From positions 1 to 38,304 of IMG/VR virus record IMGVR_UViG_3300045993_000326: DNA of 38,304 nt; one strand, 5' to 3'. Positions 1 to 4,596 of the stretch are shown piece after piece; position 1 is the first letter of the stretch; each line of letters opens with the position of its first letter. Below the pieces are notes generated by a model. The model made no database searches. It had not been told where the DNA came from and saw only the letters and a program-made list of their open reading frames with translations. The stretch is from a virus. The translations under genes and the position numbers were made by a program.

Positions 1-42
1 GTGATACTAGGGAAACCTAACCCTGGAACATTACCCTATCAC
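1..42 (-). ncRNA. Terminal hairpin of structured RNA array
   Basis: Read on the minus strand this stretch starts GTGATAGGG and ends in CCCTAGTATCAC, so six closing pairs (GTGATA/TATCAC) plus GGG/CCC can form. A second internal stem AGGG/CCCT is possible. There is no open reading frame of note. It is the last unit of the RNA array in the window and may continue beyond position 1. Function unknown. Confidence 0.35.
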
Positions 43-85
43 GTACTGACAAATTTGGCTCCCCTATGAAGAATTTAACTTCACT

Positions 86-112
86 GTGCATGGTAATATT
101 AACTCCAAGCAC
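86..112 (-). ncRNA. Hairpin in RNA array
   Basis: On the minus strand the arms GTGCTTGG and CCATGCAC pair with a single T:T mismatch around an 11-nt AT-rich loop. It lies between two other structured units. No T-run follows, so it is not an obvious terminator. It is probably part of a longer processed transcript. Confidence 0.35.
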
Positions 113-116
113 AACA

Positions 117-163
117 TACAGTGAGCCGCCGAGGCCACAAAGGCCTACGTATATATCACTGTA
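117..163 (-). ncRNA. Structured RNA unit closed by an 8-bp stem
   Basis: The minus strand gives a perfect 8-bp closing helix, TACAGTGA with TCACTGTA, and an internal hairpin AGGCC-TTTGT-GGCCT. The unit is 47 nt and lies immediately downstream of the tRNA-like unit at 186-245. No protein-coding potential was seen. It does not resemble a tRNA, and its role is unknown. Confidence 0.4.
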
Positions 164-185
164 TTTCCAGTCCGAGGAATAAAAT

Positions 186-245
186 TGGTGGATCGGAGGG
201 GAGTCGAACCCACCTGCGCCCTAGGAGCATCGCCAGATAAGATCC
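186..245 (-). tRNA. tRNA-like 3' half with encoded CCA (probably degenerate)
   Basis: The minus strand ends in a T-loop-like GGGTTCGACTCCC followed by TCCGATCCACCA, i.e. an acceptor 3' strand, discriminator A and encoded CCA. Upstream only GGATC (241-245) pairs with GATCC, making a 60-nt molecule that is too short for a normal tRNA. No normal D and anticodon arms fit. A small stem GCTC-CTA-GGGC is possible in the middle. It could be a decayed tRNA or a deliberate tRNA-like RNA. The amino-acid identity cannot be assigned. Confidence 0.35.
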
Positions 246-250
246 CGTAT

Positions 251-326
251 TGGTGGAATCTACGGGAATCGAACCCGCCTATACAGCCGTTGCGACCCAA
301 AATAGGTGCCAACCACGGGATTTGCC
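251..326 (-). tRNA. tRNA-like gene with T-arm and CCA
   Basis: On the minus strand a good T arm (GCGGG-TTCGATT-CCCGT) is followed by AGATTCC, A and CCA, the standard 3' end. Counting 76 nt upstream reaches GGCAAATC, which would pair with GATTCC only if two bases bulge. A D-loop-like GTGGTTGG is present, but no 5-bp anticodon stem with a 7-nt loop closes by eye. I call it tRNA-like and do not assign an anticodon. An unusual or degenerate tRNA is equally possible. Confidence 0.4.
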
Positions 327-367
327 TGTTGGCTTTGCAGCGTCGTCTTTTATCTGACTTGCAAAAT

Positions 368-480
368 TGGTGGACCCCTGTTTCTATGCCCTGGGCCCGT
401 TGATAGAGTATCTACTATCAGCATTGCAAATGATCTTAAGAACTTTTCAGTTCAACCTGCACGGTTAACGTGTCGATGAC
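368..480 (-). ncRNA. Structured RNA with CCACCA end
   Basis: The minus strand holds several short hairpins: CGAT-GTC-ATCG, CACG-TTAAC-CGTG, GAACT-GAAA-AGTTC (a GNRA-type loop) and TGATAG/CTATCA. It ends GGGGTCCACCA, the same CCACCA end as the next two units, but has no TTCGA T-loop. No reading frame was found. It looks like a processed RNA in the array. Exact ends are uncertain. Confidence 0.35.
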
Positions 481-488
481 ATCGTAAT

Positions 489-598
489 CATTTTAGAGTA
501 CACTACACAGGATTTGAACCTGTACAACCCGGCTATGGTAGGCACGAGGCTATCACCACTATATCTGCGTGTACGGCGCATTGATGCACTCTAAAATG
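489..598 (-). tRNA. tRNA-like RNA unit with long closing helix and T-arm
   Basis: On the minus strand CATTTTAGAGTGCA and TGTACTCTAAAATG form a near-continuous 14-bp closing helix. Inside is a perfect T-arm (ACAGG-TTCAAAT-CCTGT) and a D-loop-like AGTGGTGATA. An inner pair GTACAC/GTGTAC would define a 77-nt molecule. However, no anticodon stem forms and three extra bases lie between T-arm and acceptor. It is therefore tRNA-like but not a clean cloverleaf, and no anticodon is assigned. Confidence 0.4.
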
Positions 599-600
599 AC

Positions 601-700
601 CATTTTGAAGGATACAAAGGATTCGAACCTAAGACTACAGCACCAGAGTTAACTGGATGGCCTCCCAACTTGCCATTACCTGCGAGTACCCTTTAAAATG
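601..700 (-). tRNA. tRNA-like RNA unit with D-, anticodon- and T-like arms
   Basis: The minus strand is closed by CATTTT.AAGGGTAC with GTATCCTT.AAAATG (one A:C mismatch). A 7-bp acceptor AGGGTAC/GTATCCT lies inside. A D-arm-like hairpin (ATGGC, loop AAGTTGGGAG, GCCAT) and a hairpin CCAG-TTAACT-CTGG follow, then AGGTTCGAATCCT as a T-loop. Departures from a tRNA are ten bases between acceptor and D-arm, a 6-nt anticodon loop and only three good T-stem pairs. This is the most tRNA-like unit of the array, but decoding ability is doubtful. Confidence 0.45.
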
Positions 701-742
701 ACGTCTTCCTCTGCTTGAACTACCAATGCACAATCAGACAAT

Positions 743-825
743 CATTTTGAAATACTTTAGCAATACTGGCAGTGGACGAGCAATCAAATCCCGCGCTTAC
801 GTTCAAACCAAAATACTTCAAAATG
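743..825 (-). ncRNA. Structured RNA unit closed by a 13-bp helix
   Basis: CATTTTGAAGTAT and GTATTTCAAAATG on the minus strand pair without a break (two G:T wobbles), bracketing about 57 nt. The enclosed sequence has no TTCGA T-loop and no evident anticodon arm. It shares the CATTTT...AAAATG bracket with its neighbours at 489-598 and 601-700. The 42 nt between this unit and 700 can form a GTCT/AGAC-closed hairpin. Confidence 0.4.
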
Positions 826-898
826 ACTCCTTACACCCGCTTGTAGCGACTGTAATCTCCCGATTGAGTGTGTAAAAACATCACCAATGTAAGGAATC
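825..898 (-). ncRNA. Compact three-hairpin RNA closed by an 11-bp helix
   Basis: The minus strand GATTCCTTACA pairs with TGTAAGGAGTC over 11 bp (one wobble). Inside are three small hairpins, TGT-TTTT-ACA, AATC-GGGA-GATT (GNRA-type loop) and CGCT-ACA-AGCG, in the order expected of tRNA D, anticodon and T arms but all shortened. It is the first unit after promoter P1. I see no known family; its shape is a miniature cloverleaf. Confidence 0.45.
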
Positions 899-908
899 TT
901 GTCTACAT

Positions 909-947
909 ATTGTTAAGGAACTACACAAACAAATGCGATGATCTGTT
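909..947 (-). promoter_or_regulatory. RNA leader with 12-nt motif and boxA-like element
   Basis: Downstream of P1 the minus strand has AACAGATCATCG (947-936), then 14 nt, then GTTCCTTAACAAT (921-909). The second element resembles the bacterial rRNA-leader boxA (consensus near GCTCTTTAACA), the binding site for NusB/S10 antitermination. The same pair with nearly the same spacing follows P2. This suggests antitermination for a non-coding, structured transcript. Confidence 0.5.
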
Positions 948-957
948 TGAAAGATTA

Positions 958-986
958 ATTATAACACAATTTGCATTATGTGTAAA
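958..986 (-). promoter_or_regulatory. Promoter P1 (sigma70 type) driving the RNA array
   Basis: Minus-strand -35 TTTACA (986-981), 17-bp spacer, -10 TATAAT (963-958). The -35 sits in the extended context TAATTTACACATAATG shared by the promoter family of this window. There is no gene downstream, only the structured RNA units, so it should produce stable RNA. Confidence 0.85.
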
Positions 987-1006
987 TTATTTCTTTAGAG
1001 AGTAAT

Positions 1007-1099
1007 TGTTAGGAAGCCTGCGCACATTACACACCTCACTCTTTGGGATTTTATACCCAGAGCTACCATACTCACCTTAGGGTGAGTCAGAACCTAACA
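1007..1099 (-). ncRNA. Structured RNA under promoter P2
   Basis: The minus strand closes with TGTTAGG/CCTAACA (7 bp). It contains a strong hairpin ACTCACC-CTAA-GGTGAGT and a second one built on TGGG/CCCA with flanking CTC/GAG. It is 93 nt with no reading frame. Its size and 7-bp end stem recall a class II tRNA, but no T-loop is present. It lies between P2's boxA-like leader and P1. Confidence 0.45.
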
Positions 1100-1104
1100 A
1101 CAAC

Positions 1105-1142
1105 TTTTTAAAGAACCGATCCAAGAGATACGATGATCTGTT
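1105..1142 (-). promoter_or_regulatory. RNA leader with 12-nt motif and boxA-like element (second copy)
   Basis: After P2 the minus strand shows AACAGATCATCG (1142-1131), 13 nt, then GGTTCTTTAAAAA (1117-1105), a close match to boxA. It is the second copy of the leader found after P1, and both stand directly before structured RNA. Confidence 0.5.
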
Positions 1143-1153
1143 GGTATGGAATG

Positions 1154-1199: not shown

Positions 1200-1226
1200 A
1201 AAAAGGCCCTCTGTGGGAGGGCCTTT
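1200..1226 (-). terminator. Intrinsic terminator of the accessory operon
   Basis: On the minus strand AAAGGCCCTC-CCACA-GAGGGCCTTT is a perfect 10-bp GC-rich stem followed by two more T residues (five in all with the arm). It stands at the end of the gene run coming from 3078 and before P2. The plus-strand reading has only a short T-run. Confidence 0.85.
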
Positions 1227-3203: not shown

Positions 3204-3449
3204 TTATACTATACCAACAATTACTTTCAACTTCCAAACCGTAAGACAATAGATTTTCAGTCTATCAACGGTTTCTGTAGTATGGATAGAAAACCAAAAA
3301 GTCTGCAGTTTATCATCTACAAGTTGAGCCCAACAATCTTCGGCCCAGATCCATTCACCCATCAACTTACCAATTTTGAACTCGTGAGATGGATTTGAGC
3401 ACTTCTTCAAATCATAATGTAGACGAAGTTCGTCTTTAGTTAAATTCAT
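3204..3449 (-). CDS. Hypothetical protein, 81 aa
   Basis: ATG 3449 overlaps the stop of the RNA ligase gene by four bases, so it is probably co-translated. Tryptophan-rich (GEWIWAEDCWAQ, TFWFS). No family recognised. Confidence 0.75.
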   Translation of the reverse strand: MNLTKDELRLHYDLKKCSNPSHEFKIGKLMGEWIWAEDCWAQLVDDKLQTFWFSIHTTETVDRLKIYCLTVWKLKVIVGIV

Positions 3450-4492
3450 TCCTTAACCTTTTCAAGATACTTGTTACTAACTGCTTTAAATGAAATGCGA
3501 CGATCTGAGTTTGCCTTAAAGACAAGACCTTCACGTGGGCATCCAATCAACCCAAGCACAGACTCACCATCAGCCTTAGTTAGCAATGAGTCACATGTTT
3601 GGCCAGTCAACTTTGCTGCACGTTCAAGCACAGGTGTATCAGTCAGCCCAAGCAAACTTGTCCAAAATCTTCGTTCAACTGGATTAAAGTATTCAAACCG
3701 ATCAATGTCAAAAATATCAAACACGAAGAACATGTGCTTGGTCAAGTTGTAAATGTTGCCTTGGATACCAGGGCCGCACAGTTCACCTTGAATAGCAACA
3801 TTTTTGCCTTGTACTTCCAGTTTGTGCTTCAGTTCAAGCTCAATCGCCATCTTCCAGAATGTGTTGTCCTCAGATTCTTTCAGATCCAAGTTGCGTGAGC
3901 AGACACCAAAGTCTTCATCGCGCTTGTACACAGTCATTGAAGAGCCTTCGCACTTCTCTGTGACTTCCCATGTTTGGTGTTCAAAATGTTCTTCCATATC
4001 ACGGAAGCAGTTTTGCACACGTTCTTGATCAGTCTTGATGATGAACGATGGGAATGATCCACGAGCATCAGCAGAGGTGAACTCAGGTGGCGCTTCCCAC
4101 TTTACAATACCCAACTGTTCGGACACATCTGCACCAATACAACCATCATTGATGGGGAAAATATCCTCAGGCTCCCCAAGCACAGACAGTGGCAGCAACA
4201 GCCCTTGAGACAATTGCTTGCGCAGACGGATTGTGCGAAGCTTTTCACCTTCAACACCAAGATACGTCTTGGGGAAATGTCCCGGCTTTGTTAAGAAAGG
4301 TGCAAGTGTGCTTGGAATGAATGAATCTGGTTCTGCGTACACAACGAGATCACCCACTACATACTTGCCGACTTGGTCAACGATCCACCAGCCATTCACC
4401 CTGTAAGCACAGATCTTGTCTGCATCAGGGATAGCTTTTACTTCTGCAATCTTTTGAATAGACGCCATTTTACGAACATAAACTTCTGTCAT
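3446..4492 (-). CDS. RNA ligase, DRB0094/Rnl5-like
   Basis: An ATP-dependent RNA ligase that would seal 5'-phosphate/3'-hydroxyl nicks through a lysine-AMP intermediate. The nucleotidyltransferase motif I is visible as VTEKCEGSSMTVY (the Lys of EKCEG is the nucleophile), followed by motif-like RNLDLKE, IQGELCGPGIQ, FVFDIF, EGLVFK and a closing ISFKAVS. The N-terminal 150 residues form the OB-like extension typical of the Deinococcus DRB0094 (TIGR02306) type. ATG 4492 is chosen because of AAAGAGG 6 nt before it. Likely role: repair of nicked or cleaved RNA, for example host tRNA cut by defence nucleases. The neighbouring RNA array makes this suggestive. No polynucleotide kinase is seen in the window. 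Confidence 0.92.
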   Translation of the reverse strand: MTEVYVRKMASIQKIAEVKAIPDADKICAYRVNGWWIVDQVGKYVVGDLVVYAEPDSFIPSTLAPFLTKPGHFPKTYLGVEGEKLRTIRLRKQLSQGLLLPLSVLGEPEDIFPINDGCIGADVSEQLGIVKWEAPPEFTSADARGSFPSFIIKTDQERVQNCFRDMEEHFEHQTWEVTEKCEGSSMTVYKRDEDFGVCSRNLDLKESEDNTFWKMAIELELKHKLEVQGKNVAIQGELCGPGIQGNIYNLTKHMFFVFDIFDIDRFEYFNPVERRFWTSLLGLTDTPVLERAAKLTGQTCDSLLTKADGESVLGLIGCPREGLVFKANSDRRISFKAVSNKYLEKVKE

Positions 4493-4503
4493 TTTATACC
4501 TCT

Positions 4504-4596
4504 TTATTTTGTCCAATAAGCATATAGTAAGAATAAGAAAATACCGATTACTTCGATCACAAAGAAAAGCATCAGTAGATCAGTCACCCATCTCAC
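4504..4596 (-). CDS. Single-span membrane peptide, 30 aa (GTG start)
   Basis: GTG 4596 follows AAAGG at a spacing of 6 nt. The product is almost all one helix (LLMLFFVIEVIGIFLFLLYA), and the frame ends just before the RNA ligase ribosome site. Very short, so only moderately supported. Confidence 0.5.
   Translation of the reverse strand: MRWVTDLLMLFFVIEVIGIFLFLLYAYWTK

Follow-up and report, generated by a model that had tools for sequence, protein, structure and literature searches.

The window, meaning the whole 38,304-nt stretch of DNA analysed here (positions 1 to 38,304 of IMG/VR record IMGVR_UViG_3300045993_000326), is a 38-kb fragment of a T4-type phage that encodes a major head protein (phrog_138), a portal protein (phrog_213) and an RNA ligase (phrog_968). 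Between the ligase gene and the end of the window, the minus strand carries two leaders in front of an untranslated RNA array:

3446..4516 (-): gene for the RNA ligase (phrog_968), lying upstream of the array
1200..1226 (-): hairpin followed by a T run, resembling an intrinsic terminator, AAAGGCCCTC-CCACA-GAGGGCCTTTTTG, read from the sequence and conserved in the related contig L125
1154..1182 (-): promoter P2, TTTACA-17-TATAAT, within TAATTTACACATAWT, a phage early-promoter motif
1121..1144 (-): boxB-like hairpin of P2, CCAACAGAT-CATCGT-ATCTCTTGG, 8 of 9 pairs, hexaloop
1105..1116 (-): boxA of P2, GTTCTTTAAAAA, agreeing with GYTCTTTAANA throughout
1004..1104 (-): inter-leader structured RNA, with GTTGTTAGG...CCTAACAAT as its closing helix, fold z = -3.3
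958..986 (-): promoter P1, TTTACA-17-TATAAT, sigma70-type match
926..949 (-): boxB-like hairpin of P1, CAAACAGAT-CATCGC-ATTTGTTTG, 9 of 9 pairs, hexaloop
910..921 (-): boxA of P1, GTTCCTTAACAA, departing from the consensus at position 5 only
1..909 (-): start of the RNA array, untranslated and strongly folded, with tRNA-like modules and T-arms carrying CCA; continues past the window edge

The original prediction described two copies of a 12-nt motif, each followed by a boxA-like sequence, and both elements were recovered: the record contains two copies of the motif (AACAGATCATCG) and no more, at 936-947(-) and 1131-1142(-), and the only matches to GTTCNTTAAMAA in the window are those at 910-921(-) and 1105-1116(-), compared with 0.13 expected from dinucleotide shuffles. 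The combination of the motif, exactly 14 nt and GTTCNTTAANAA is likewise found twice, against 0.01 expected in shuffled window sequence. The predicted spacing of 13-14 nt narrowed to 14 nt at both copies, the 13-nt alternative falling away. The motif itself stands as a sequence but not as a free-standing element: it makes up most of the 5' arm and the loop of a hairpin, the 3' arm of which lies inside the 14-nt gap. The resulting layout is a 9-bp stem, a 6-nt loop, 4 nt and boxA. Ahead of both leaders stands TTTACA-17-TATAAT, which belongs to the early-promoter motif TAATTTACACATAWT, with 11 of 12 matches to sigma70, a degree of agreement that supports the reading as promoters. The terminator-like hairpin at 1200..1226, which was missed by an automatic terminator scan of the window, closes the upstream protein operon and separates the RNA unit from it. 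No Rfam family matched above its gathering score in the window.

Agreement with the consensus also supports the assignment of boxA. GYTCTTTAANA is the published gamma-proteobacterial boxA consensus (PMC5725501), which may not be that of the host; P2 alone matches it strictly, and P1 departs from it only at position 5. In many other phage leaders position 5 is A or C, and the change in P1 therefore looks tolerated. The P2 boxA core, GTTCTTTAAAA, recurs unchanged as the boxA in the CRISPR leader of L. pneumophila Lens; placed in a leader, this CRISPR-array boxA raised the array transcript approximately 10-fold (PMC7862264).

Relatives were found by using the RNA ligase (phrog_968) as the query, and the closest of them are all uncultured: G001 (69 kb), G002 (50 kb), G003 (192 kb) and G004 (166 kb), with RNA ligases 80-87% identical to that of the window. 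Cultured phage records yielded no match to the window region and no useful match to the two leader queries. When related genomes were searched for the leader, it was present in G001, in G003 and in L150, a 13.6-kb contig that carries it inside its own tRNA cluster, and a diverged copy was found in G004. An RNA ligase of the phrog_968 family lies near the RNA array both in the window and in L564, a second phage with a leader of this kind, and might join the ends of cut tRNAs or of RNAs from the array.

Comparison of the leaders of this family supports the hairpin through covariation. In each, a 24-nt segment separated from boxA by 4 nt can form 8 or 9 of the 9 pairs that would enclose a 6-nt loop, as in the hairpins of L125 (CCAATCAAA-CATCGC-TTTGATTGA) and L123 (AAGTGAAAT-GATAGA-GTTACACTT); in one L150 leader the hairpin is offset by one base. 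When seven distinct leaders are aligned without gaps, pairing extends to 93.7% of cells, and eight of the nine pairs show compensatory changes. The covariation score of these seven leaders was 0.667, compared with 0.230 after shuffling (0 of 500 shuffles reached 0.667) and with no more than 0.116 for slid positions of the 3' arm. A covariance model built from the seven recovered all family leaders together with the diverged leader in G004 (GCAGTAAAT-GATCGA-GTTAGCTGC-TAGC-ATTCATTAACAA; E = 6.5e-5), which has a different promoter and lies within the G004 tRNA region; beyond these, nothing in 502 kb scored better than E = 0.17. Against 185 genomes of one bacterial class, the model returned four weak, chance-like matches with no tRNA nearby. 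Across diverged phages the loop, [CG]AU[AC]G[ACU], is kept and the stem sequence varies freely.

The leader is confined to RNA units. We tallied every promoter of the early class in G003 (192 kb), G001 (69 kb) and the window, and the leader is carried by 9/9 of those that drive tRNA or ncRNA units and by none of the promoters of this class that stand before protein genes (Fisher p ~2e-9), nearly all promoters without a leader being of the latter type. At all nine RNA-unit promoters, boxA lies 36-39 nt past the -10 box, and the pattern GTTC[ACT]TTAA[AC]AA has no further match in G001, G003 or the window outside the leaders. Random occurrence of the motif before protein genes, a weak point that the original prediction had named for itself, was thus checked and the leader was seen only at RNA-unit promoters (9/9 versus 0). 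With all nine RNA units carrying it, the leader shares with rrn-type signals a restriction to untranslated transcription units.

In G001 and G003, the arrays that follow the leaders contain 24-27 tRNAs by ARAGORN count. The window holds just the first 900 nt of its array, in which T-arms and CCA ends can be read, and ARAGORN accepts no tRNA in these ~900 nt. The predicted P1 transcript is strongly structured (fold z = -7.6). The 5' part of the RNA between the leaders (1004-1104) is conserved in L125 and L123.

Several features of the RNA itself were observed alongside. The stretch directly after the P2-type boxA (TTGTTAGGTTCTGACTCACYCTAAGGTGAGT) is conserved in relatives (window 1004-1104 (-), L125 13660-13850), a comparable stretch (AGGTTCTGAGTCA) lies just after boxA in two other phages, L616 and L572, and the RNA directly 3' of P2-type boxA is possibly an RNA family of its own. 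Array modules are closed by near-identical perfect stems (TCATTTTGAAGTATTT...AAAGTATTTCAAAATGA) in the window (1-850 (-)), in L125 (14050-15140) and in L539 (13770-14690); some enclose tRNA-like bodies that ARAGORN rejects. At L125 14296-14380, a T-arm-like sequence (GCTAGTTCGATTCTAGGC) stands ahead of a D-arm-like part within a long closing stem, and this module is possibly a circularly permuted tRNA-like RNA. A T-arm with CCA in the window (238-278 (-)) weakly resembles permuted tmRNA (E = 0.037, short of the gathering score). In the tRNA cluster of a more distant phage, a candidate large structured RNA of ~400 nt (L135 15140-15580), closed by CACATGG...CACACATGG, directly follows a hairpin-boxA leader.

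Pattern searches point to a spread of such leaders well beyond this family. A scan of IMG/VR for TTGACA-TANNNT-boxA gave at least 112 distinct sites, and a reversed-boxA control yielded 30 stretches (28 distinct); among the matches listed, a same-strand tRNA lay within 1.5 kb of 51/112 sites compared with 0/28 controls, and the first tRNA often began 13-19 nt after boxA. A second scan, for a -10 box followed by the hexaloop [CG]AT[AC]G[ACT] and boxA, returned 117 stretches compared with 26 when boxA was reversed. At least 7 of 9 pairs could form at 38/85 distinct sites (2/22 in the control), and a tRNA followed 46/85 (0/22 with boxA reversed). Pairing at these sites was bimodal, as expected for real hairpins mixed with chance loops. 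A covariation count over 37 sites is biased, the sites having been preselected for pairing, and the unbiased evidence for the hairpin consists of the seven-leader count and this bimodal pairing relative to the control. Hairpin and boxA are separated by 4 nt in the window and by 3-5 nt in other phages, and some phage leaders have a GNRA-type hairpin in the same place (for example, GTTGA-GAAA-TCAAC). Phage genes adjoin several of the hexaloop-boxA sites, among them genes for DNA polymerase, helicase and DNA ligase, as well as the phrog_968 RNA ligase family in L564. A broader search pattern, GATCATCG..TTCNTTAA, was dropped as too loose.

In the bacterial genomes sampled, promoter, hairpin and boxA in this order were found mainly at rRNA operon leaders: a 16S start fell within the available sequence at 33/117 sites, and at most of the others the contig broke just after a typical rrn leader. 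A tRNA was detected after 0/117 of these sites, a count that is informative for the longer contigs only, most being cut at contig ends. Ten cultured phages (T4, KVP40, Aeh1, Acj9, C2-10_Ab1, pf16, V45v66, BUCT-ZZ01, DC31 and KLEP7) have no perfect-consensus boxA before their tRNA genes, indicating that phages can do without the leader, which is one solution among several.

On the evidence of sequence, we consider it likely that both leaders are Nus antitermination signals of the boxB-boxA type known from rRNA operons, with which an untranslated phage RNA transcript begins, and that they probably keep host RNA polymerase from stopping early on long untranslated tRNA and ncRNA transcripts. Host antitermination in the service of long structured RNA had been proposed in the original prediction, and the proposal gains support from the confinement to RNA units, the boxA consensus, the rrn-like order and the downstream fold (z = -7.6). 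We infer transcription, Nus binding, resistance to Rho and help with folding and processing as follows. Host RNA polymerase would start at the phage early promoter, the -10 box of which lies 8-11 nt upstream of the hairpin, and the nascent RNA would present first the boxB-like hairpin (9 bp, loop [CG]AU[AC]G[ACU]) and then boxA (GUUCNUUAAMAA). Host NusB and S10 would associate with boxA and remain on the polymerase together with NusA, NusG and SuhB; that the factors would be those of the host is suggested by four phage contigs (G001, G003, G008 and G021), none of which carries a NusB gene. A several-kilobase array of tRNAs, tRNA-like and other folded modules would thereby be shielded from Rho, and the modified polymerase would aid its folding and processing, as in rRNA operons.

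The kept loop invites a different reading, in which the leader is a lambda-like nut site: a phage N-like protein would bind the conserved hexaloop, with boxA merely a Nus contact. A loop that is kept across diverged phages on a freely varying stem is what a protein-read loop predicts, and cellular rrn leaders hardly ever contain the hexaloop. However, in lambda nut sites boxA comes first and the hairpin (boxB) follows, whereas the hairpin precedes boxA in every leader here, as in rrn; the GNRA-type hairpins in the same place in other phages mean that no single loop reader is needed; and the leader in this group precedes untranslated RNA only, unlike N sites, which serve protein operons. We regard a nut site as unlikely. 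It is quite improbable, too, that the leader serves RNA folding, 5'-end protection, processing or timing in place of protection from Rho, for example through a boxA that tethers the 5' end for leader-trailer helices. The helix closing the inter-leader RNA in the window does begin just after boxA, and in rrn operons the leader-trailer helix matters, and deletion of boxA in a single-rrn strain left growth unchanged (PMC10250234). Many leaders elsewhere, however, are separated by 13-19 nt from an ordinary downstream tRNA, a gap in which a helix of this kind would hardly fit, and the two roles are compatible with each other. Chance, low-complexity sequence or contaminating copies of host rRNA leaders might be suspected from an A+T-rich motif and from the possible presence of host sequence in IMG/VR, but this explanation is hardly tenable and is refuted by the covariation and the reversed-boxA controls, alongside shuffle expectations of 0.01-0.13, conservation over related contigs and phage genes beside the sites.

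Beyond the antitermination reading of the two leaders, we put forward more tentatively, as a proposal that falls somewhat short of an even chance, that the loop hairpin, 3-5 nt and boxA form a widespread and distinct phage element, by which the host is made to treat tRNA and ncRNA arrays like rRNA operons, with Nus factors and SuhB providing both protection from Rho and a platform for folding and processing, and with the kept loop marking a factor that reads boxB independently of N. Among open-licence papers, we found none joining boxA with phage tRNA clusters. If the antitermination reading of the leaders holds, the machinery that serves antitermination in bacterial rRNA operons is borrowed by phages that carry large tRNA arrays, the use of boxA extends beyond rRNA, lambda, CRISPR arrays and suhB, and the escape of several-kilobase untranslated arrays from Rho would be explained. 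The role of boxB in rRNA operons is puzzling (PMC10250234). A factor reading the kept loop would, if real, bear on that role, which becomes testable because the phages offer a natural set of boxB hairpins whose loop is kept while the stems vary freely.

Set beside known systems, the leader resembles several and coincides with none. Like nutL and nutR of lambda, at which N protein acts, it has an RNA hairpin beside boxA and, putatively in its case, engages host Nus factors through boxA; it differs from them in its opposite order, its different loop and the lack of a protein operon. The boxA in the suhB 5' UTR, which represses a protein gene by blocking translation (PMC5725501), also lies outside rRNA operons, whereas the unit behind the phage leader has no translated gene. 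The CRISPR-array leaders of Stringer et al., to the extent that PMC7862264 relays that work, similarly have a boxA ahead of a repetitive RNA array that is not translated; the present cases differ in belonging to phages, in preceding tRNA arrays and in having a conserved hairpin of fixed geometry. The closest likeness is to the rrn leader, in which boxB, boxA and boxC follow one another and boxA is necessary and sufficient for factor recruitment (PMC10250234). boxC, 18-19 nt after boxA, was seen at 1/111 viral promoter-boxA sites among the matches listed compared with 66/102 cellular sites, and none was read in either leader of the window; the phage leader is therefore not classed as an rrn leader proper, and tRNAs and other structured RNA follow it in the place of 16S and 23S rRNA genes. 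It differs further in its fixed hexaloop, in driving phage tRNA and ncRNA arrays and, in the window, in the tandem arrangement of two leaders with an RNA module in between. With the rrn leader and its complex of NusA, NusB, S10/NusE, NusG, SuhB and S4, it has in common the order of promoter, hairpin and boxA, the boxA consensus, a long untranslated downstream RNA and RNA modules closed by helices, and the cellular rrn leaders recovered here have the same layout: a promoter, a hairpin, a few nucleotides and boxA.
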